The position numbers and the translations under genes are program-made. Positions 5 through 47,045 of a stretch of DNA of 64,000 nucleotides are shown here, piece after piece (the stretch's first letter is position 1; every line of letters starts with the position of its first letter). The DNA is taken from assembly GCF_014196845.1 (NCBI RefSeq), contig NZ_JACIEM010000002.1:434001-498000 (forward strand), in the 5' to 3' direction. The notes under the pieces are model-generated. The model worked only from the letters and a program-made list of their open reading frames with translations. It searched no databases and was not told the origin of the DNA. This DNA is from Aurantimonas endophytica (GTDB lineage: Bacteria > Pseudomonadota > Alphaproteobacteria > Rhizobiales > Rhizobiaceae).

Positions 5-976
5 ATGAAGACGACGACTTGGCTCGGCGCGAGCCTCATCGTGCTCGCGGCAGGCAGTGCCAGCGCGCAGGATTATCCGACGCAACCGATCACGATGGTC
101 GTGCCGTTCGCAGCCGGTGGCCCGACGGATACCGTCGCGCGGCTGATCGCCGAACCAATGTCCCGTGAGCTCGGACAGCAGATCGTGGTCCAGAACGTCG
201 CCGGCGCCGGCGGCACGCTCGCCGGGACGCAGGTGGCGAATGCCGAACCGGACGGCTACAAGATCCTGATCCACCATATCGGCATGTCGACGGCCCCGAC
301 GCTCTACCGCAATCTACCTTACGATCCGACGACGGATTTCCTGCCGATCGGCCTGGTCACCGACGTGCCGATGACCGTCATCGGCCGCAAGGATCTGGCG
401 CCGACGACGATGGCGGAGCTGATCCCCGTCATCAAGGAGCAGGGCGACCAGCTCACCTACGCCAATGCGGGAATCGGGGCTGCCTCGCATCTGTGCGGCC
501 TGTTGCTGATGACGGCGCTCGACACGCAGATGACGACCGTGCCGTACCAGGGTACGGGCCCCGCGATGACCGATCTCATCGGCGGTCAGGTCGACCTGAT
601 GTGCGACCAGACCACCAACACGACCGGCCAGATCAAGGGCGGTGAAGTGAAGGCCTACGCGGTGACGACGAAGGAGCGCCTCGACGCGCTGCCGGACGTG
701 CCGACCACCGCGGAATCGGGCCTTCCGGATTTCGAGGTCAGTGTCTGGCACGGTCTCTACGCGCCGGAAGGCACGTCGACGGAGATCGTCGAGCAGGTCT
801 CGGCGGCCCTGCAGAAGGCCCTGGCGGACGAAACCGTCATTGCCCGGTTCGGCGATCTGGGAACGGCGCCCTCCTCACAGGAAGAGGCAACGCCCGCCGC
901 GCATGCGGAACGCCTGACGTCGCAGATCGAGCTGTGGCGCCCGATCATCGAACAGGCCGGCGTCTACGCCGATTGA
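5..976 (+). CDS. tctC: TctC/Bug-family periplasmic solute-binding protein
   Basis: This is the periplasmic binding subunit of a tripartite tricarboxylate transporter. The 323-residue length is normal for the family. Residues 1-21 form a Sec signal peptide ending in ASA before Gln22. Residues 32-42 (VVPFAAGGPTD) match the carboxylate-contacting loop of Bug proteins. It heads a same-strand tctC-tctB-tctA set, 80 bases before tctB, so it presumably delivers ligand to the TctAB permease. The ligand cannot be read from the sequence; family members bind citrate, other organic acids or amino acids. Only four bases precede the start codon, so the promoter lies outside the window. Confidence 0.9.
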   Translation: MKTTTWLGASLIVLAAGSASAQDYPTQPITMVVPFAAGGPTDTVARLIAEPMSRELGQQIVVQNVAGAGGTLAGTQVANAEPDGYKILIHHIGMSTAPTLYRNLPYDPTTDFLPIGLVTDVPMTVIGRKDLAPTTMAELIPVIKEQGDQLTYANAGIGAASHLCGLLLMTALDTQMTTVPYQGTGPAMTDLIGGQVDLMCDQTTNTTGQIKGGEVKAYAVTTKERLDALPDVPTTAESGLPDFEVSVWHGLYAPEGTSTEIVEQVSAALQKALADETVIARFGDLGTAPSSQEEATPAAHAERLTSQIELWRPIIEQAGVYAD

Positions 977-1056
977 TCGGCCGCAGCAATCATGTCGGTG
1001 GAGCGTGGCGCAGCGCTGCCGCTCCACCGTGAACCGTCCGCTGCTCGGAACGTAGA

Positions 1057-1518
1057 GTGACCCTTCACAAATCTGCGCGCGATCTTCTGGCAGGCGGCAT
1101 CTTCGTCGCCTTCGGCCTGGCCTTCGGCTATGCGAGCTACGGCTATGATCTCGGGACCCCGCTGCGCATGGGGCCGGGCTTCTTCCCGCTGGCGCTGGCG
1201 GGATTCCTCGTCCTGCTCGGGCTGGTGATCGCCCTGGCCGGCGTCCGCAATACAGAAGACGCGCCGCTCGGCGCCTTCCCGGTGCGCGGCTTCGTGCTGA
1301 TCATCGGCGCGTTGATGGTCTTCGCGCTGACGATCAAGGGGCTCGGCCTCGCGCCGGCGCTCTTCCTGACCGTGCTTCTGGCGGCCTTCGCCAGCCGGCG
1401 GACCAAGCCGCTGGCCGGACTGGTCATGGCGGTCGCGCTGCCGGCCTTCTGCATCGCGGTGTTCATCTACGCGCTGCGCGTACCCGTTCCCTTGTTCGGC
1501 CCCTGGTGGCCGATGTGA
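1057..1518 (+). CDS. tctB: Tripartite tricarboxylate transporter small membrane subunit TctB
   Basis: This is the small, poorly conserved membrane subunit of a TTT-type secondary transporter. The 153-residue protein has about four hydrophobic segments (roughly residues 10-30, 40-62, 75-95 and 98-145), as expected for TctB. The start is a GTG; no in-frame ATG lies nearby upstream, and the first hydrophobic helix begins about ten residues in. It sits between tctC and tctA, with only 13 bases to the tctA ATG, so the two membrane subunits are almost certainly co-translated. The call rests on size, hydrophobicity and position more than on a strong motif. Confidence 0.85.
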   Translation: MTLHKSARDLLAGGIFVAFGLAFGYASYGYDLGTPLRMGPGFFPLALAGFLVLLGLVIALAGVRNTEDAPLGAFPVRGFVLIIGALMVFALTIKGLGLAPALFLTVLLAAFASRRTKPLAGLVMAVALPAFCIAVFIYALRVPVPLFGPWWPM

Positions 1519-1531
1519 CCCGGATCGCGTG

Positions 1532-3037
1532 ATGGATCTTCTCGTCAACCTCGCGCTTGGCTTCGACACCGCGCTCACCCCGGTGAACATCTTCTACTGC
1601 TTCCTCGGCGTGCTGCTGGGCACGCTCGTCGGCGTCCTGCCCGGCATCGGCCCGACGGCGACCATCGCCATGCTCTTGCCGATCACGCTCAGCCTGTCGC
1701 CGGTGACCTCGCTGATCATGCTCGCCGGCATCTATTACGGCGCGCAATATGGCGGCTCGACCACCGCGATCCTGATCAACCTGCCGGGTGAATCCTCCTC
1801 CGCCGTCACCGCCATCGACGGCTACCAGATGGCGCGCAAGGGCAGGGCCGGGCCGGCGCTGGCCACGGCGGCGCTGGGCTCGTTCTTCGCCGGTACGGTC
1901 GCGACGCTGATCCTCGCGGTGGCGGCGCCACCGCTCGCCCGCATCGCCCTGCAGTTCGGCGCGCCAGAATATTTCTCGCTGATCGTGCTCGGACTTCTCG
2001 CCTCGATCGCGCTGGCGCACGGCTCCGTCGTCAAGGCATTGGCGATGATCGTGCTCGGCCTGCTGCTCGGCATGGTCGGGCAGGACATCTATACCGGCCA
2101 GCCGCGCTTCACCTTCGGCTATTTCGAGCTGTTCTCGGGGATCAATTTCGTCTCCGTCGCAGTCGGCATGTTCGGCATCGCGGAGATTCTCCGCAATCTC
2201 GAGAACGAGCAGACCCGCTCTGCTCTGAAGCAGGCGATCGGGCGGCTGTGGCTGACGCGCGACGACTTCCGCCGCGCCACCGGCCCGGTGCTCCGCGGCA
2301 CGGCGCTCGGCTCGATCCTTGGCGTGCTGCCCGGCGGCGGCCACGTCCTTTCGTCCTTCGCGTCCTATTCGATGGAAAAGCGGATGTCGAAGACCCCGGA
2401 GGAATTCGGGCAGGGCGCGATCGAGGGTGTCGCCGGGCCGGAATCGGCCAACAACGCCGCGGCGCAGACCTCCTTCATCCCGCTGCTGACGCTCGGCATC
2501 CCGGCCCATCCGGTGATGGCGCTAATGATCGGCGCCTTCATCATCCAGGGCATCACGCCGGGACCGAACGTCATCAACGACGAGCCGGCGCTGTTCTGGG
2601 GCATCATCGCCTCGATGTGGATCGGCAATCTGATGCTGGTGCTGCTCAACCTGCCGCTCATCGGCCTGTGGGTGAAGCTCCTGAGCGTGCCCTACAACGT
2701 CCTGTTCCCGGCCATCGTCGCGTTCGCGGTGTTCGGAACCTACACGATCAACCTCAACGTCTTCGACATCTACGCCATCGTCTTCTTCGGCATCCTCGGC
2801 TATCTGCTGATCAAGCTCGGCTGTGAACCGGCGCCCCTGCTGCTCGGCTTCGTGCTTGGACCGCTGCTCGAGGAGCATTTCCGCCGTGCCATGATCATCG
2901 CCCGCGGCGACCCGATGATCTTCATCGAACGTCCGATCAGCGCCGGCCTGCTCGCCGTGGCGGTGCTGGCCGTGGTGATCGCGCTGCTGCCGTCGATCCG
3001 CCGCAAGCGCGACGAGGTCTTCGTCGAGGAGGACTGA
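1532..3037 (+). CDS. tctA: Tripartite tricarboxylate transporter large membrane subunit TctA
   Basis: This is the large permease subunit of the TTT transporter, an integral membrane protein of about 501 residues and 11-12 helices. Visible family signatures are GVLPGIGPTATIAMLLP near the N-terminus, YGAQYGGSTTAILINLPGE at about residues 70-88, and a second GxLPGGGH repeat near residue 270, reflecting the two-fold repeat of TctA. The ATG at 1532 directly follows an in-frame GTG at 1529; I chose the ATG, a one-codon difference. It is the last gene of the set. The next gene starts about 90 bases on and is unrelated. Confidence 0.93.
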   Translation: MDLLVNLALGFDTALTPVNIFYCFLGVLLGTLVGVLPGIGPTATIAMLLPITLSLSPVTSLIMLAGIYYGAQYGGSTTAILINLPGESSSAVTAIDGYQMARKGRAGPALATAALGSFFAGTVATLILAVAAPPLARIALQFGAPEYFSLIVLGLLASIALAHGSVVKALAMIVLGLLLGMVGQDIYTGQPRFTFGYFELFSGINFVSVAVGMFGIAEILRNLENEQTRSALKQAIGRLWLTRDDFRRATGPVLRGTALGSILGVLPGGGHVLSSFASYSMEKRMSKTPEEFGQGAIEGVAGPESANNAAAQTSFIPLLTLGIPAHPVMALMIGAFIIQGITPGPNVINDEPALFWGIIASMWIGNLMLVLLNLPLIGLWVKLLSVPYNVLFPAIVAFAVFGTYTINLNVFDIYAIVFFGILGYLLIKLGCEPAPLLLGFVLGPLLEEHFRRAMIIARGDPMIFIERPISAGLLAVAVLAVVIALLPSIRRKRDEVFVEED

Positions 3038-3099
3038 GACCGCCTTCAATCAGGCCGGATGGCTGCGCGTTTTGCCGCAGCCGCCCGTTCGCTCTGGCG

Positions 3100-3114
3100 G
3101 AACATTTCAGGAAC
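3100..3114 (+). promoter_or_regulatory. LexA (SOS) box upstream of the radical SAM/UdgX locus
   Basis: The sequence reads GAAC, seven bases, GAAC, which is the complement of the alphaproteobacterial LexA direct repeat GTTC-N7-GTTC. It lies 14 bases before the ATG at 3129. A TATGTT at 3117-3122 could be the -10 element, giving a near-leaderless transcript with LexA covering the promoter. The match to the motif is exact; repression by LexA is inferred. Confidence 0.7.
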
Positions 3115-3128
3115 GGTATGTTGGCCTG

Positions 3129-4373
3129 ATGGCCAAGACCACCCTCATCGACAAGCTCGCGATCCTCTCCGACGCCGCCAAATACGACGCCTCCTGCGCC
3201 TCCAGCGGCTCGACTCGCCGGGATTCGGCCAAGTCGAAGGGCATCGGCTCGACCGAAGGCTCCGGCATCTGCCATGCCTACGCGCCGGACGGGCGGTGCA
3301 TATCGCTGCTCAAGATCCTGATGACCAATTTCTGCGTCTATGACTGCGCCTATTGCGTCAACCGGTCGTCGTCCAACGTCCCGCGCGCCCGCTTCACGGT
3401 GGAGGAGGTCGTGCAGCTGACGATGTCATTCTACCGGCGCAACTACATCGAGGGACTGTTCCTCTCCTCCGGCATCATCCGCAGCTCCGACTACACGATG
3501 GAGGAGATGGTGCGGATCGCCCGCAAGCTGCGGCTGGAGGAGAACTTCGCCGGCTACATCCATCTGAAGACGATCCCCGATGCATCGCCGGCGCTGATCG
3601 AAGAGGCAGGGCTTTTCGCCGACCGCCTGTCGATCAACATTGAGCTGCCGACCGATGCGACGCTGGAGGCCTTCGCGCCGGAGAAGAAGCCGCGCGACAT
3701 CCGCCGCGCCATGGGGCATCTGCGCGCCAAGATCGAGGAGCACAAGGGTGAGAAGCGGGATCGTGCCAAGCCCGCGCGCTTCTCGCCGGGCGGCCAGTCG
3801 ACGCAGATGATCGTCGGCGCCGACGGCTCGGACGACGACCACGTCCTCGCCCGCTCGGAAAACCTCTACGGCAACTACCGGCTGAAGCGGGTCTATTATT
3901 CCGCCTTCTCGCCGATCCCGGACGCGTCGAGCCGGCTGCCGCTCGGCAAGCCGCCGCTGATGCGCGAGCACCGGCTCTACCAGGCCGACTGGCTGATGCG
4001 CTTCTACGGCTTCGACCGCGGCGAGATCGTTGCCGGCGGCGAGGCGGGCATGCTCGACCTTGCCATCGACCCGAAGCTCGCCTGGGCGCTGAAGCACCGT
4101 GAGCGCTTCCCGGTCGACGTCAACCGCGCCGACAAGGAGACGCTGCTGCGCGTGCCCGGCCTCGGCACGCGCGCCGTCGACCGCATCCTCTCGACGCGCC
4201 GGCACCGGACGCTGCGGATCGACGACGTGGCACGGCTCTGCCAGTCGGTCGCCAAGGTCCGCCCCTTCATCGAGGCGCTGGACTGGACGCCGGGCGCTGC
4301 GACGGACAGCGCGGGCCTGCGGGAGCGGTTCCTGCCGAAGGTGCGGTCACCGGCGCAGATGGAGTTGTTTTGA
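3129..4373 (+). CDS. Putative DNA modification/repair radical SAM protein (UdgX-linked family)
   Basis: This is a 414-residue radical SAM enzyme of the family habitually encoded next to a DUF4130/UdgX protein. Cys69, Cys73 and Cys76 in CVYDCAYC form the CX3CX2C motif that binds the 4Fe-4S cluster and SAM. A helix-hairpin-helix region lies at about residues 330-355 (RVPGLGTRAVDRIL), a DNA-binding element seen in repair proteins. I start at ATG 3129 rather than the in-frame ATG at 3072, because the later start keeps the LexA box outside the gene and begins with the family-like MAKTTLIDKL. The partner gene follows after a 336-base gap holding a palindromic repeat. The chemical reaction is not established for the family. 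Confidence 0.88.
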   Translation: MAKTTLIDKLAILSDAAKYDASCASSGSTRRDSAKSKGIGSTEGSGICHAYAPDGRCISLLKILMTNFCVYDCAYCVNRSSSNVPRARFTVEEVVQLTMSFYRRNYIEGLFLSSGIIRSSDYTMEEMVRIARKLRLEENFAGYIHLKTIPDASPALIEEAGLFADRLSINIELPTDATLEAFAPEKKPRDIRRAMGHLRAKIEEHKGEKRDRAKPARFSPGGQSTQMIVGADGSDDDHVLARSENLYGNYRLKRVYYSAFSPIPDASSRLPLGKPPLMREHRLYQADWLMRFYGFDRGEIVAGGEAGMLDLAIDPKLAWALKHRERFPVDVNRADKETLLRVPGLGTRAVDRILSTRRHRTLRIDDVARLCQSVAKVRPFIEALDWTPGAATDSAGLRERFLPKVRSPAQMELF

Positions 4374-4709
4374 GGGGGCGATGCGCCCGCATGTCAACTC
4401 GCATCCGACGGCTGGAGCATTGTGCCACGGTGCCCAACAAGGTCGTCATCGTCGGGCCCCATCCCGAGGATCCATGCTTCCGCGCGGTAATGGCCTGTCC
4501 GTATGAGGAACGTTCGAAGGGACGCCTCAGCCGGTCGGGCAGGTCGTGAGCAGCGTGCGGGAATGGGACTGGATCCTCGGGACGGGGCCCGAGGATGACG
4601 CCGACGGAGATGTCGCAGCTAGCCGGTAAGTTCAGCGACGTTCTGACGAGAACGGGAACAAGTCCGTTCCGCGCCAAGTTGAGATTTCCACCCAACTCAT
4701 CGGTCGTCC
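4374..4709. other. 336-base intergenic stretch with a palindromic repeat
   Basis: No credible gene is visible between the radical SAM gene and udgX. The stretch holds the REP-like inverted repeat described at 4445-4599. Just before udgX there is a cluster of GTTC/GAAC tetramers at 4630-4669 that resembles an imperfect SOS control region. Short open frames here show no family features. Confidence 0.6.
4445..4599. repeat. REP-like palindromic element, copy 1
   Basis: Two 30-base arms in inverted orientation, at 4445-4474 and 4570-4599, are separated by about 95 bases. The right arm (TGGATCCTCGGGACGGGGCC then CGAGGATGAC) is identical to the right arm of the copy at 28923-29046. The left arm has diverged slightly: GTCATCGTC replaces GTCATCCTC, and CCCCATCCC replaces CCCCGTCCC. 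It fits the class of intergenic mosaic palindromes common in rhizobial genomes. Confidence 0.75.
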
Positions 4710-6182
4710 ATGTTCACCGCCCCGCTCTCCTTCCCCGCCGACTTCGACGGCTGGCGTATCGCTTCCCGCACAGCGCTATCCCTCGGTGTTCCGCCCGAAG
4801 AAATGAGCTTCACCGTCGGCGAGGAAGCCCCCGGCCTTTTCGCCGAACCGCTCCCGCTGCCGCCCGCCAGCGCTTCCCAACCGACCGTGCCGAAAGCGTT
4901 TCCGGAGCTGGCAGCCAAACTCGTCTGCCACGCCGATGCCGACCGCTTCGTCTTCGCCTACCGGCTGCTCTGGCGGCTGCAGACGGAGAAGCAGCTGCTG
5001 GAGATCGCGTCCGATCCCGACGTCATCCGGGCGCGGGAAATGGAAAAGGCGGTGCGCCGCGACAGCCACAAGATGAAGGCCTTCGTGCGCTTTCGCGAGA
5101 TCGAGGATCCCGAGCTCGGCCGGCACTACGTCGCCTGGTTCGAGCCGTTCCACCACATCGTCGAGCTGACCGCGCCGTTCTTCGCGCGGCGCTTCGCCGG
5201 CATGGTCTGGACGATCCTGACTCCGGAGCGCTCGGTGCACTGGGACGGCTCGGACCTGTCCTATTTGCCGGGCGCGACGAAGGACATGCGGCCCAAGGAC
5301 GACGACATGGAGGCGCTCTGGCTCACCTATTACGCCTCGATCTTCAACCCGGCGCGGCTGAAGGTGAAGGCGATGCAGGCCGAGATGCCGAAGAAATACT
5401 GGGCGAACATGCCCGAGACCGCGCTGATCCGGCCGCTGATCGAGGGCGCCGAGGCCGCGTCGCGGCGGATGATCGAAACCGCGCCGACCCTGCCGGGTTT
5501 ACGACATGAACGCCAGATGGAGCGGGAGCGGATGGCAAGACCGGTTCCGGCGGAAGCATCGGCAGAACGCATCCGGCACGCCGATCTCGATGCCGCGCGA
5601 GACCAGGCGAAGCACTGCAAGGCCTGTCATCTCTGGGAGCCGGCGACGCAGACCGTGTTCGGCCGCGGCCCGGCTGACGCGCCGGTGATGTTTATCGGTG
5701 AACAGCCGGGCGATCAGGAGGATCTTGCCGGCGAGCCGTTTATCGGCCCGGCCGGCAAGGTATTCGACCAGGCGCTGGCGGCGGCCGGGATCGACCGGAC
5801 CCGGGCCTACGTCACCAATGCGGTCAAGCATTTCAAGTTCGTGCCGCGCGGCAAACGGCGCATCCATGCCAAGCCCAATGCCGGCGAGGTCCAGGCCTGC
5901 CGCTGGTGGCTCGACACCGAGCGGGAACTGATCCGCCCGAAACTGGTGGTCGCCTTGGGCGCGACGGCCGCGGCCGCGGTGCTCGGCCGGACCGTGACGA
6001 TCCGCGATACGCGCTCGAAGCTGATCGACCTCGATGCGGCGACGAAGCTGCTCGTCACCGTCCACCCGTCCTACATCCTGCGCCTGCCGGATGCGGCGGC
6101 GCAGGCCCAAGAGAGCGCGGCATTTACCGCCGACATGGCGCTGGTGCGCGCGACTGTGCCGGAACTGGCGCTGGCGGCCTGA
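4710..6182 (+). CDS. udgX: DUF4130-UdgX fusion: uracil-DNA-binding protein
   Basis: This 490-residue protein fuses an N-terminal DUF4130 domain (about residues 1-260) to a C-terminal family-4-like uracil-DNA glycosylase domain (about 290-480). The UDG domain shows GEQPGDQED at 330-338 and HPSYILR starting at His452. The insertion KRRIH at 382-386 is the hallmark of UdgX, whose loop histidine (here His386) forms a covalent bond with the deoxyribose after uracil excision. Established UdgX proteins therefore stay covalently bound to uracil-containing DNA instead of turning over. It pairs with the radical SAM gene upstream. Its stop abuts the DUF2474 stop on the other strand with no gap. Confidence 0.93.
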   Translation: MFTAPLSFPADFDGWRIASRTALSLGVPPEEMSFTVGEEAPGLFAEPLPLPPASASQPTVPKAFPELAAKLVCHADADRFVFAYRLLWRLQTEKQLLEIASDPDVIRAREMEKAVRRDSHKMKAFVRFREIEDPELGRHYVAWFEPFHHIVELTAPFFARRFAGMVWTILTPERSVHWDGSDLSYLPGATKDMRPKDDDMEALWLTYYASIFNPARLKVKAMQAEMPKKYWANMPETALIRPLIEGAEAASRRMIETAPTLPGLRHERQMERERMARPVPAEASAERIRHADLDAARDQAKHCKACHLWEPATQTVFGRGPADAPVMFIGEQPGDQEDLAGEPFIGPAGKVFDQALAAAGIDRTRAYVTNAVKHFKFVPRGKRRIHAKPNAGEVQACRWWLDTERELIRPKLVVALGATAAAAVLGRTVTIRDTRSKLIDLDAATKLLVTVHPSYILRLPDAAAQAQESAAFTADMALVRATVPELALAA

Positions 6183-6323
6183 TCAGCCGATCAGCACGCT
6201 GCGGATGATCAGGCCGAGAAGGCTGACCACGGCGATGCCGCCGAGCCAGAGCAGCACAAACCAGCCGATCCGCTTCCACAGGCTGTCCGGCGCCTCGCGG
6301 GGCTCGCCTTGCGGCCGGGTCAA
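6183..6323 (-). CDS. DUF2474 small subunit of the CydAB-type oxidase
   Basis: A 46-residue single-helix membrane protein follows cydB. Translation gives a charged start, then DSLWKRIGWFVLLWLGGIAV and a second hydrophobic stretch, ending RSVLIG. This matches the DUF2474 proteins that accompany cyanide-insensitive oxidase operons and resemble the CydX small subunit of bd oxidases. The start is a TTG at 6321-6323 whose first two bases overlap the TGA of cydB (TTGA), implying translational coupling. Stabilising the oxidase is inferred from CydX; the sequence alone shows only the helix and its position. Confidence 0.8.
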   Translation of the reverse strand: MTRPQGEPREAPDSLWKRIGWFVLLWLGGIAVVSLLGLIIRSVLIG

Positions 6324-7321
6324 TGGTGGTAGCCTTCGCCCTCGACGACCTTGCCGCGGAACACCCAGTAGGCGTAGCCGGTATAGATCAGGATCATCGG
6401 GATCAGCACCGAGGCGCCGACCAGCAGGAAGATCAGCGAGGCGTCAGGCGCGGCGGCGTCCCAGATGGTGATGTCCGGCGGGATGATGTTGGGATAGAAA
6501 TTGATGCCAAGGCCGGCGAAGGCGAGGACGAAGATCGTCAGCGCCGACAGGAACGGCCGCACGTGCTTGCCGCGTGCCAGCGAACTGAACAGGCTGAAGG
6601 CCGCGAAGGCGAGCATGATCGGCACTGGCGCGACGTAGAAGATCAGCGGGAAGGTGAACCAGCGCACGTAGAACTCGGCGTCGAGGAACGGCATCCACAG
6701 GCTGACGAGACCGATCAGCACCAGCGTGCCGATGCCGGTGATCCAGGCGAAGCGATTGGCGATGTCGTGCAGTTCCCCTTCGGTCTTCATCACCAGCCAG
6801 GTGGCACCGAGCAGCGCGTAGCCGACGACGACCGCGACGCCGGTCATCAGCGAGAACGGCGTCAGCCAGTCGAACCAGCCGCCGGCATAGGCCCGGCCAT
6901 CGACGTCGATGCCCTGGACCAGCGTGCCGAGCGCGATGCCCTGGCTCAGCGCCGCCACGACCGAGCCGATGAAGAACGAGACGTCCCACATCCAGCGGCC
7001 TCGCACCGTCCGGAAGCGGAACTCGAAGGCCACGCCGCGGAAGATCAGCGCCAGCAGCATGGCGATGATCGGCGCATAGATCGCCGGCATGATGATCGCG
7101 TAGGCCAGCGGGAACACCGCGAACAGCCCGCCGCCGCCGAGGATCAGCCAGGTCTCGTTGCCGTCCCAGATAGGCGCCACCGTGTTCATCGCCGTGTCGC
7201 GGTTCTCGTGGCGCCCGAGCAGCGGGAACAGGATGCCGGTACCGAGGTCGAACCCGTCGAGGATGACATAGGCGATGACGGCGAAGGCGATGATGAACGC
7301 CCAGAGTACGGCGAGGTCCAT
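6320..7321 (-). CDS. cydB: Cytochrome bd-type quinol oxidase subunit II
   Basis: Subunit II of a bd-family quinol oxidase, 333 residues with about eight to nine membrane helices. Family features include YVILDGFDLGTGILFP near the N-terminus, PIWDGNETWLILGGGGLFA at about residues 50-68 and FRGVAFEFRFR near residue 92. It forms the inner-membrane oxidase with CydA and lies 11 bases downstream of it. Being shorter than classical E. coli CydB and followed by DUF2474, it is closer to the cyanide-insensitive (Cio) subgroup. The complex reduces O2 with ubiquinol and gives high-oxygen-affinity or sulfide- and cyanide-tolerant respiration. Confidence 0.95.
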   Translation of the reverse strand: MDLAVLWAFIIAFAVIAYVILDGFDLGTGILFPLLGRHENRDTAMNTVAPIWDGNETWLILGGGGLFAVFPLAYAIIMPAIYAPIIAMLLALIFRGVAFEFRFRTVRGRWMWDVSFFIGSVVAALSQGIALGTLVQGIDVDGRAYAGGWFDWLTPFSLMTGVAVVVGYALLGATWLVMKTEGELHDIANRFAWITGIGTLVLIGLVSLWMPFLDAEFYVRWFTFPLIFYVAPVPIMLAFAAFSLFSSLARGKHVRPFLSALTIFVLAFAGLGINFYPNIIPPDITIWDAAAPDASLIFLLVGASVLIPMILIYTGYAYWVFRGKVVEGEGYHH

Positions 7322-7332
7322 GGTCGTCTCCC

Positions 7333-8757
7333 TCAGCTCTCAGCCGGTTCGGGCGTGTTGCGCCCCTCGAGCGAGGGCGCCGGCGTGATGCCGGCTGCCC
7401 GTGTCGGCTGGTGCGGCGGGCTATCCTCCTCGAACGGAGTCGGCGTCTTGCCCATCAGGCGCAGGATGTAGAACGTCCCGGCGCCGAACAGCAGGAAGTA
7501 GACGATGACGAAGGCGACGAGCGACGTCCCGACCGCTTCCGCCGCGATGGGCGAATGGCTCTCGGACGTGCGCAGCAGGCCGTACACGGTGAAGGGCTGG
7601 CGCCCGACCTCGGTGGTGATCCAGCCGGCGATGACCGCGACGAACCCCATCGGCCCCATTGCGAGCATCGCCCGCTGCAGCCAGGTGCTCGAAAAGAGCG
7701 AGCCGCGATAGCGCTTGAACAGCGACCAGAGCCCGATGCCGAGCATGGCGAAGCCGATCGCCACCATGACCCGGAAGCTCCAGAACACGATCGTGGCGTT
7801 CGGCCATTCGTCGCGCGGGAAGGCGTCGAGCCCCTGCACCACGCCATCGAGCGAATGGGTCAGGATGAGCGAGCCGAGATAGGGCACGTCGACGGCATAG
7901 TCCGTCCGTCCCGTCTCCATGTTGGGGATGCCGAACAGCGTCAGCGGCATCGAGCCGTCGCTGTTGGTCTCGAAATGCCCCTCGATGGCGGCGATCTTGG
8001 CGGGCTGGTGCTCCAGCGTGTTCACGCCATGGAAATCGCCGGCGACGATCTGCATCGGCGCGACGATGGTCGCCATCCACAAGGCCATCGAGAACATCAG
8101 CCTGGCATGGGCGTTGGCCCGGTCGCGCAGCAGGTGGAATGCCGCGACCGCACCGACGACGAAGGCCGTCGTGAGATAGGCCGCCAGCACCATGTGGACG
8201 AGCCGGTAAGGGAAGGACGGGTTGAAGACGATCGCCCACCAGTCCTCGGGGACGAACTGCCCGACCTCGTTGATGCCGTAACCCGCCGGCGTATGCATCC
8301 AGGAATTGACCGAAAGGATCCAGAAGGCCGAGAAGCAGGTGCCGATCGCCACGACCAGCGTGGCGGCGAAATGCAGCTTGGGGCCGACGCGCTTCTGGCC
8401 GAACAGCATGATGCCGAGGAAGCCGGCCTCGAGGAAGAAGGCGGAGAGAACCTCATAGGCCATCAACGGACCGAGGATCGGCCCGGTCTTGTCGGAGAAC
8501 ACCGACCAGTTGGTGCCGAACTGGTAGCTCATGGTGATGCCGGAGACGACGCCCATGCCGAAGCTGAGCGCGAAGATCTTCACCCAGTAGTTGAAGGTCT
8601 CCATGTAGACCGCCCGGCCGGTGGCGAGGAACAGACCCTCGAGCACCGCCAGATACGACGCCAGGCCGATCGTGAAGGCCGGAAAGATGATGTGGAAAGA
8701 GATCGTGAAGGCGAACTGGATCCGGGCGAGGAGGACGGGGTCGAAGCCTTCGAACAT
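7333..8757 (-). CDS. cydA: Cytochrome bd-type (cyanide-insensitive) quinol oxidase subunit I
   Basis: Subunit I, which carries the haems and the quinol site. From ATG 8757 it has 474 residues, starting MFEGFDPVLLARIQFAFTIS. An in-frame ATG lies at 8778, but the family begins at the MFEG position. His in FTISFHIIFPAFTIGLASYL near the N-terminus is a conserved haem ligand. The GRQPFTVYGLLRTSES segment near the C-terminus is typical of Cio-type CydA. The periplasmic Q-loop region is short, again as in Cio enzymes. cydA, cydB and DUF2474 form one minus-strand operon, divergent from the glycerate kinase gene. Confidence 0.95.
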   Translation of the reverse strand: MFEGFDPVLLARIQFAFTISFHIIFPAFTIGLASYLAVLEGLFLATGRAVYMETFNYWVKIFALSFGMGVVSGITMSYQFGTNWSVFSDKTGPILGPLMAYEVLSAFFLEAGFLGIMLFGQKRVGPKLHFAATLVVAIGTCFSAFWILSVNSWMHTPAGYGINEVGQFVPEDWWAIVFNPSFPYRLVHMVLAAYLTTAFVVGAVAAFHLLRDRANAHARLMFSMALWMATIVAPMQIVAGDFHGVNTLEHQPAKIAAIEGHFETNSDGSMPLTLFGIPNMETGRTDYAVDVPYLGSLILTHSLDGVVQGLDAFPRDEWPNATIVFWSFRVMVAIGFAMLGIGLWSLFKRYRGSLFSSTWLQRAMLAMGPMGFVAVIAGWITTEVGRQPFTVYGLLRTSESHSPIAAEAVGTSLVAFVIVYFLLFGAGTFYILRLMGKTPTPFEEDSPPHQPTRAAGITPAPSLEGRNTPEPAES

Positions 8758-8793
8758 GGCGTAGCCTACGGTTCTCATGCGGTGTGTGCACGG

Positions 8794-8799
8794 ACTATA
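8794..8799 (-). promoter_or_regulatory. Candidate -10 element for cydA
   Basis: On the minus strand the sequence reads TATAGT about 37 bases before the chosen cydA ATG. The upstream region is T-rich but has no convincing -35 hexamer at 17 bases. If it is used, transcription would begin near the alternative ATG at 8778, which favours the ATG at 8757. Confidence 0.35.
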
Positions 8800-8972
8800 G
8801 GCGTTGTGCGGCGCGAAAAATAGCACGTTGCGACCATTCGCCGGGGTGGCCTGCAAGGGCGGTGCCGGTTCTGGTGCGCGCCACGGGCGATTGTTTTGGC
8901 TGTTCCTGCTGCTGTCTTGATCGTCGGTTCCGCTGTTATAGAGGCTGAGGATGGTGCAGCGGGAGGCAGGGC

Positions 8973-45811: not shown

Positions 45812-46969
45812 CTAAAGCAGCGCCAGCTGCACGCCGGTTCCCCGCGGCGGCGTGAACAGATCGCAGCGCAGCTTGGTGCGCTCCTCGTTGAGGCCGAGGC
45901 GTCGCGCCGTCATCTCGAAGCGCCGCCGGATCTGGAAGGCGTAGGGTCCGGTGCCGCGCATCCGCTTGCCCCACTCGGCGTCGTAGTCCTTGCCGTCGCG
46001 CATCGAGCGCAGCAGCGACAGCACGTGCCGGTAGCGGTTGGGGTAGTGGCGCAGGAGCCATTCCTTGAACAGCGGCGACACTTCCAGCGGCAGGCGCAGC
46101 AGCACGTAGCCGATTTCCCGCGCGCCGGCCGACTGGGCCGAATCGAGAACCCTCTCGATCTCCGAATCAGTCAGCCCGGGAATGATCGGCGCCATCATCA
46201 CCATGGCCGGAATGCCGGCCTCGGTGAGCGCCTTGACCGCCTCAAGGCGCTTGCCGGGCGTGGCAGCGCGCGGCTCCATCGTGCGCGCGAGGCTGCGGTC
46301 GAGCGTCGTCACCGACAGTGCCACCTTGGCGAGCCCCTTGGCCGCCATGCGCGACAGGATGTCGATGTCGCGCGTCACCAGCGCCGACTTCGTGACGATG
46401 CCGACGGGATGGTTCGCCGCCTCCAGCACCTCCAGGACCTCGCGCATGATCCGCCAGGTCTTCTCCACCGGCTGATACGGGTCGGTATTGGTGCCGATGG
46501 CGATCGAGCGGACCTCGTAGCCGGGCTTGGAGAGCTCGCGCTCCAGGAGCTCCGCCGCGTTCGGCTTGGCGAACAGCTTCGATTCGAAGTCGAGCCCGGG
46601 CGACATGCCCATATAGGCATGGGTCGGCCGGGCGAAGCAGTAGACGCAGCCATGCTCGCAGCCCCGGTAGGGGTTGATAGAGCGGTCGAACGAGATGTCC
46701 GGCGAGCTGTTGCGGGTGATGATCGTCTTCGGCGATTCGACCTGCACTTCGGTCTTGAACGGCGGCAGTTCCTCGAGACTCTTCCAGCCGTCGTCGAATG
46801 CAACGCGCGCGAACGGCTCGTAGCGCCCGCTCGGATTGATCCCGGCGCCACGGCCGCGCCGCCGCATCCGGTCGACCCTGAGGCCCGACCCGTCGATCAA
46901 CTGGTTGGCGATCTCGACGCCGTTCGCCGAAGCGAACGCCGCGCGGTCCGCGTGGCTGACGTCCTGCAT
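45812..46969 (-). CDS. PA0069-family radical SAM protein (SplB-like)
   Basis: A 385-residue radical SAM protein resembling spore photoproduct lyase. The cluster motif is YRGCEHGCVYCFARP, with the CX3CX2C Cys residues near position 85-92. The family N-terminus (RMRRRGRGAGINPSGRYEPF) and SIAIGTNTDPYQPVEK are clear. ATG 46969 has AAGGA eight bases upstream; the open frame continues 43 codons further, across the LexA box. The reaction is unknown. An SOS-type operator precedes it, which favours a DNA-damage role. rnhB follows on the same strand after 126 bases. Confidence 0.9.
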   Translation of the reverse strand: MQDVSHADRAAFASANGVEIANQLIDGSGLRVDRMRRRGRGAGINPSGRYEPFARVAFDDGWKSLEELPPFKTEVQVESPKTIITRNSSPDISFDRSINPYRGCEHGCVYCFARPTHAYMGMSPGLDFESKLFAKPNAAELLERELSKPGYEVRSIAIGTNTDPYQPVEKTWRIMREVLEVLEAANHPVGIVTKSALVTRDIDILSRMAAKGLAKVALSVTTLDRSLARTMEPRAATPGKRLEAVKALTEAGIPAMVMMAPIIPGLTDSEIERVLDSAQSAGAREIGYVLLRLPLEVSPLFKEWLLRHYPNRYRHVLSLLRSMRDGKDYDAEWGKRMRGTGPYAFQIRRRFEMTARRLGLNEERTKLRCDLFTPPRGTGVQLALL

Positions 46970-47030: not shown

Positions 47031-47045
47031 GAACAATACAAGAAC
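47031..47045. promoter_or_regulatory. LexA (SOS) box between the PA0069-type gene and a glycosyltransferase-like gene
   Basis: GAAC at 47031-47034 and GAAC at 47042-47045 are seven bases apart, an exact complement of GTTC-N7-GTTC. On the minus strand it reads TTGTTCTTGTATTGTTCTCC, where TTGTTC or TTGTAT could be a -35 and TATTAG or TAGGTA a -10 for the radical SAM gene. It is the second exact LexA-type box in the window. Confidence 0.7.

Follow-up and report, generated by a model that had tools for sequence, protein, structure and literature searches.

A conserved LexA box and a candidate clamp-binding tail point to a probable SOS-induced radical SAM/DUF4130 DNA-repair module with an optional UdgX domain

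Results

The window analysed here, a 64,000-nucleotide (64-kb) stretch of the Aurantimonas endophytica genome (contig NZ_JACIEM010000002.1, positions 434,001 to 498,000 of the forward strand), carries a LexA (SOS) box in front of two genes, which encode a radical S-adenosylmethionine (SAM) protein of the TIGR03916 family and a fusion of DUF4130 with the uracil-DNA glycosylase (UDG) domain UdgX (Table 1). The operators, gene architecture and C-terminal tails of the relatives point to an SOS-induced, clamp-tethered radical SAM/DUF4130 DNA-repair module in which the UdgX domain would be optional, and we consider this reading reasonably probable. An exact GAAC-N7-GAAC (GAACATTTCAGGAAC), noted in a preliminary description made from the sequence alone, was confirmed with 14 bases between it and the ATG at position 3129. 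At its longest, the open reading frame (ORF) could start at a TTG at position 3072, which would place the box inside the gene. The ATG was preferred because the alignment to the TIGR03916 model begins at residue 7 counted from it and because the box of the relatives precedes the homologous position.

Table 1. Features of the window, with the evidence for each
Feature	Position	Strand	Evidence
LexA (SOS) box GAACATTTCAGGAAC	3100..3114	+	sequence match; box kept in alphaproteobacterial relatives
Probable −10 element TATGTT (−12 to −7 of the ATG)	3117..3122	+	suggested by base counts by position in relatives
Radical SAM protein TIGR03916 (rSAM_link_UDG), 414 residues	3129..4373	+	profile match; C69-C73-C76 and invariant C23, C48, H49, C57
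C-terminal candidate clamp-binding motif QMELF (residues 410-414)	4356..4370	+	motif pattern, conservation
Intergenic gap with inverted pair of a dispersed repeat (arms 4444-4474 and 4570-4600)	4374..4709		repeat search of the genome
DUF4130 (TIGR03915, residues 8-237) fused to UdgX (TIGR03914, residues 239-479)	4710..6182	+	profile matches
Second radical SAM gene, PA0069 family (NF033668), ending QLALL	45812..46969	-	574 bits, cut-off 360
LexA box GTTCTTGTATTGTTC, 61 bases before the second radical SAM gene	47031..47045	-	sequence match; relatives

The box in the window is weak evidence when taken alone, as four GAAC-N7-GAAC sites were counted in the 64 kb against 1.42 expected and at least four occurred in 7 of 100 shuffles; it turns strong once the relatives are added. 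The whole host genome contained 138 sites, compared with 63 for the reversed pattern. Besides those within the window, 30 of the 138 sites were fetched and inspected, and the genes beside them included lexA, uvrA and a parC-type topoisomerase IV gene, which makes GAAC-N7-GAAC very probably the LexA operator of the host. Three more sites similar to the window box (GAACATNTCCGGAAC) were seen in the same genome (G000), at C3:638592, C3:674508 and C4:5063. No second LexA box was present in the 336-base gap between the two genes.

The conservation of the operator was evaluated in two samples. The first comprised 80 alphaproteobacterial relatives, the best of 593 confirmed stretches, and the second comprised 398 genomes from the phylum of the window, 84 of which encoded a protein over the TIGR03916 cut-off. 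All 84 loci were examined; 55 of them belonged to the class of the window (its own genome, locus L132, included) and 29 to other classes. The two sets may share species, and genera such as g114 give several rows. When a zone from 250 bases upstream to 30 bases downstream of the start was searched in the 80 relatives, 78 had the box and the remaining two (L067, L098) had one-mismatch versions. The box with a spacing of 7 was found in all 55 alphaproteobacterial loci of the second sample (0.14 expected from background), while every other half-site spacing occurred in 0-2 of these loci and CTGT-N8-ACAG, which serves as LexA box in many Gamma- and Betaproteobacteria, in none. Conversely, the alphaproteobacterial box was missing from all 29 loci of the other classes, of which 24 carried CTG-N10-CAG, 19 of them in the stricter form CTGT-N8-ACAG (1.46 and 0.08 expected in the same loci). 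The type of operator thus appears to switch with the class of the host, with control being retained. Conservation in relatives, which the preliminary description had named as a check on its reading, was borne out in Alphaproteobacteria, and the local LexA box took the place of GAAC-N7-GAAC elsewhere. Upstream of the gene on a gut phage-labelled contig (L207) and in Acetoanaerobium (L204), inspection by eye showed sequences one mismatch away from GAAC-N4-GTTC, the LexA box of Gram-positive bacteria.

The position of the box was also informative about the promoter. Among 134 alphaproteobacterial rows, the box started between −20 and −13 relative to the ATG in 84, with −17 being found in 55. In the group of 84, the spacer of the box, commonly ATATAGT or ATATCAT, contains a −10-like element, and TAnnnT started at −12 in 35 rows. 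Where the box lay further out, as in the window (28 rows), T was found at −12 in 15 rows and A at −11 in 24, which agrees with the earlier suggestion of a possible −10 element at position 3117. These base counts suggest that LexA would cover or flank the −10 element of a leaderless promoter.

The radical SAM protein scored 570 bits against TIGR03916, for which the curated cut-off is 343.5, and was 99% identical to that of the closest named relative, Aurantimonas aggregata. Its CX3CX2C motif (C69, C73, C76), recognised from the start, was found in all 164 members of the two samples, and C23, C48, H49 and C57 were equally invariant. These three extra cysteines and the histidine lie ahead of the radical SAM motif (window positions 3195-3299, residues 23-57); C23, C48 and H49 fall within conserved residues 23-50, where the predicted local distance difference test (pLDDT) of the model was below 50, and C57 lies just beyond. 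They possibly ligate a second cluster or supply a hydrogen donor. The candidate helix-hairpin-helix matched PF12836 with 21.1 bits, under the gathering cut-off of 27, and R341, P343, G344 and G346 were present in 164 of 164 members. The 50 best fold matches listed for the protein (84 at E 0.001 or better) were general radical SAM barrels.

The second gene matched TIGR03915 and TIGR03914, in line with the DUF4130-UdgX fusion described earlier, and the GEQPG, KRRIH and HPSYILR motifs were all present. In 163 of 164 loci, DUF4130 came after the radical SAM gene on the same strand. The intergenic distance in the window was 336 bases, in contrast to a median of −1 (overlapping genes) in the relatives, the largest gap being 2975 bases; the window gap contains a 31-base repeat, for which the genome has 29 matches, the stretch itself counted. 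The pairing of the two genes is real, and the operon, which had been called visible, is so in the adjacent co-directional genes of the relatives but is an extrapolation for the window itself.

The architecture was counted in 151 loci that had a complete DUF4130 gene and a clear domain arrangement; outside this set fell eleven loci in which DUF4130 was cut by the end of the stretch, L038 (DUF4130 not found) and L133 (split reading). A UDG domain was fused to DUF4130 in 124 loci and absent in 27. In the 398 phylum genomes, radical SAM and DUF4130 occurred together in 84 and DUF4130 alone in three, and the radical SAM gene was never found alone. Hence none of the 84 genomes with the radical SAM gene lacked DUF4130 (84/84), and 84 of the 87 with DUF4130 had the radical SAM gene. 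The three genomes with DUF4130 and no radical SAM protein over the cut-off (G200, G217, G287) all belong to one genus. UdgX, in contrast, was over its cut-off in 63 of the 84 radical SAM genomes and also in 15 genomes that lack the radical SAM gene. Given these counts, the core of the module is, as far as co-occurrence can tell, the radical SAM protein with DUF4130, and UdgX is optional.

The 21 genomes without UdgX over the cut-off were 20 with DUF4130 only and G387 (L153), whose fusion has a UdgX half that lost both GEQPG and the loop histidine and scored below the UdgX cut-off. None of the 20 DUF4130-only genomes had UdgX over the cut-off anywhere, and the control genomes (G000, G207, G249) did match. 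Nine of the 20 gave no UdgX match at all, and the other eleven stayed under the cut-off of 189.95 bits with scores of 23-154; the three highest-scoring among these eleven, which were read, were GEAPG-type glycosylases without the KRRxH loop. A LexA box of the class of the host was nevertheless present in 18 of the 20 (13 exact, five only as CTG-N10-CAG), and two had none. In the fused proteins, the loop G[KR]R[RK]xH was found in 99 of 124, 24 of the other 25 keep the histidine in a varied context (123 of 124 in total, L153 being the exception), and GEQPG was kept in 122. The invariant residues of DUF4130 were H120, R127, R161, W204, Y207, R216, W231 and E236 (64/64). UdgX of M. smegmatis is known to trap uracil-derived sites covalently. 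Its chain in PDB 6AIL matched the UdgX half of the window protein at 171.8 bits, with 46% identity in the structural match, and shares the same GEQPG and KRRIH; the 6AIL chain has 229 residues, whereas in the window UdgX makes up the C-terminal half of a DUF4130 fusion of 490 residues.

A candidate clamp-binding motif, to which the preliminary description does not refer, was identified at the C-terminus of the radical SAM protein. Within the last 16 residues, the strict pattern Q[LM]xL[FLW] was found in 139 of 164 tails (75/80 in the first sample, and 43/55 and 21/29 in the second), compared with 0.2-0.3 per set in shuffled tails. It was present nowhere in the remaining 65,423 residues of the same proteins and in none of 649 neighbouring ORFs. 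QLSLF was the commonest variant (52), followed by QLSLL (19) and QLELF (12), with QMALW and QMELF also occurring. A relaxed pattern fitted 157 of 164, and the other seven end in QLGFGF. Q410 was kept in 163 of 164 members, while the linker before the tail varies, and the pLDDT of the tail was below 50, as for a flexible end. A similar tail was seen in all ten further members read, from Pseudomonadota, Bacteroidota, Clostridia, Gemmatimonadota and viral or phage-labelled contigs (one of the two loci on viral contigs was read). These included QLSLF (Subdoligranulum), QLSIF (Acetoanaerobium), QLSLW (Gemmatirosa), QLSLGF (a contig labelled Acinetobacter phage), QLSFF (a gut phage-labelled contig) and QLLLDF (Bacteroides). 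The Gemmatirosa member lacks the three extra cysteines and is perhaps a paralogue. The β-clamp consensus has been published as QL[S/D]LF (PMC3716654), and a motif of this type at an accessible, low-confidence and flexible end marks the protein as a putative β-clamp client. The SOS polymerase UmuC carries the same type of motif (QLNLF; PMC3716654); UmuC is, however, a DNA polymerase with an internal motif, as opposed to a radical enzyme with the motif at its C-terminus.

The window contains a second radical SAM gene, of the PA0069 family, which also has a LexA box in front of it and a clamp-motif-like tail. It has no meaningful sequence similarity to TIGR03916 and, unlike the DUF4130-paired module, no DUF4130 match. 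Among the 30 best of 68 alphaproteobacterial genomes over the PA0069 cut-off, the host included, the LexA box was found in 26 of 30 loci, the strict tail in 19 and the relaxed tail in 28. Caulobacter vibrioides, used as a control genome, gave matches to all four models (radical SAM, DUF4130, UdgX and PA0069).

Discussion

The radical SAM-DUF4130 pair is probably an emergency DNA-repair tool that acts at replication forks. Judging from the conserved sites, LexA would bind GAAC-N7-GAAC over or next to the −10 element of a promoter that is probably leaderless, and its cleavage upon DNA damage would release both genes. The radical SAM protein would then probably dock on the replication clamp (DnaN) through its QMELF/QLSLF-type tail and apply SAM-derived radical chemistry to a DNA lesion, with DUF4130 as an obligate partner that may bind or present the lesion. 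The UdgX domain would be an optional addition, able to trap uracil-derived sites covalently by analogy with its M. smegmatis counterpart. SOS control, the obligate DUF4130 and the clamp tail would together indicate at what moment, at which site and with which partner this common radical SAM family probably acts.

Several observations weigh against this reading. No recognisable operator was seen in five of the 29 loci outside the class of the window, namely L114, L144 and three members of family f46. The genomes of L114 and L144 lack lexA over the cut-off, but those of f46 have it, and the one cleanly read lexA upstream region of f46 (L215) carries a different palindrome that is missing before its radical SAM gene, so the SOS link seems to be lost or to take another form in some lineages. 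The tail of the window protein, QMELF, deviates from the strict published consensus QL[S/D]LF, and the relaxed pattern arises by chance in 2.6-4.3 shuffled tails per set and in 26 of 649 neighbouring ORFs; the tail could also bind a partner other than the clamp. Furthermore, the searches with DUF4130 turned up no relative with a known function or fold. Its fold matches, 50 listed per library, were mostly glycosylases or glycosylase-carrying polymerases, and none of them was assignable to DUF4130.

According to the preliminary description, UdgX would become covalently attached to uracil, or its abasic site, and the protein-DNA adduct would then be resolved or processed by the radical SAM enzyme. 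The bona fide UdgX domain with its GEQPG, KRRIH and HPS motifs is in keeping with such a scheme, as are the presence of UdgX in three quarters of the radical SAM genomes (63/84) and the near-complete retention of the loop histidine and GEQPG in the fused proteins. As a general function, however, it is not supported, given an invariant DUF4130 (84/84) next to a UdgX that does not reach its cut-off in 21 of 84 genomes, the 27 loci devoid of a UDG domain, the 20 DUF4130-only genomes that have no UdgX over the cut-off and mostly retain the LexA box, and the 15 genomes in which UdgX occurs without the radical SAM gene; we regard it as unlikely. A direct-reversal, photolyase-like enzyme akin to the spore photoproduct lyase (SplB-like) seems similarly unlikely. 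The CX3CX2C motif with its DNA-repair annotation agrees with it, and PMC3765255, as far as its relevant passages go, names the DUF4130-associated radical SAM proteins SplB-like, yet the protein matched no spore-lyase family, a 61-member profile matched no PDB chain at E 0.01 and a spore lyase was not among the 50 fold matches listed. Membership in SplB was rejected on these three grounds.

Two further explanations carry far less weight than a SplB-like enzyme. The box would scarcely be a chance match or a promoter of the general stress factor EcfG: GGAAC-N15-TGTT can be read at 3099-3122, near to the EcfG consensus, but the G in front of GAAC varies among the relatives (A 55, G 38, T 12, C 9), an EcfG-like pair was present in only 8 of 132 upstream regions, the box flips its orientation in some relatives with both half-sites retained, and the type of site tracks the LexA type of the host class. 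The EcfG promoter was rejected for the first two of these reasons. An anti-phage or mobile-element function in place of repair is very improbable as well. Members do occur on plasmids (158 records) and on phage-labelled records (10); on the other hand, there was no PADLOC match, no neighbouring gene was common to more than 10 of 134 loci, and genes of chromosomal type, glyS and glyQ among them, lie on the Acinetobacter 'phage' stretch that was fetched. That stretch (L206, Acinetobacter phage MD-2021a) is a 240-kb phage-labelled record with the pair near glyS/glyQ, which looks chromosomal and is perhaps mislabelled. A third conserved gene in the module was likewise rejected, the commonest neighbour being found in 10 of 134 loci.

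The resemblance between the two radical SAM genes of the window suggests, tentatively, that at least two unrelated families (TIGR03916 with DUF4130, and PA0069) could have gained a LexA operator and a C-terminal clamp tail independently, and might represent a class that delivers radical chemistry to stalled forks; we hold this to be conceivable, with slightly less than even confidence. A clamp tail common to two unrelated SOS radical enzymes would hint that radical DNA repair reaches forks by a general route.

The families TIGR03916, TIGR03915 and TIGR03914 are named as a putative DNA modification/repair radical SAM protein, DUF4130 and UdgX, and the window genes scored over their curated cut-offs. 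To these definitions, sequence comparison adds the candidate clamp tail, the status of DUF4130 as obligate partner and that of UdgX as an optional one. We take COG4277 to be the TIGR03916 family. Like the window pair, the COG1573-COG4277 operon is a two-gene UDG system under predicted LexA control; it was predicted for Bacteroidetes and, by citation, its SOS control was extended to Verrucomicrobia and Alphaproteobacteria (PMC8565304). The passages of that paper on the operon call it a putative base excision repair system and mention neither DUF4130 nor a clamp motif. DUF4130 had been linked to radical SAM and UDG proteins in 2013 (PMC3765255, in the part that deals with the domain). A radical SAM gene in a LexA regulon, not matched here to TIGR03916 or PA0069, is listed in the relevant part of PMC9380542. 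Presumably, COG1533 includes the PA0069 family. SplB-type radical SAM genes (COG1533) appear under SOS control in a passage of PMC8565304. No paper joining 'UdgX' and 'radical SAM' was found in the literature searched, and no title among the matches listed concerned a clamp tail of radical SAM enzymes. Within this literature, the near-universal operator with its class switch, the candidate clamp tail of two unrelated SOS radical enzymes and the finding that UdgX is optional appear to be new.

Other features of the window

No structured RNA was detected at the gathering threshold between positions 2900 and 6300. The flanks of the module consist of ordinary neighbours, namely the tripartite tricarboxylate transporter genes tctC, tctB and tctA (5-3037) on one side and genes for cytochrome bd oxidase subunits (6320-8856) on the other.

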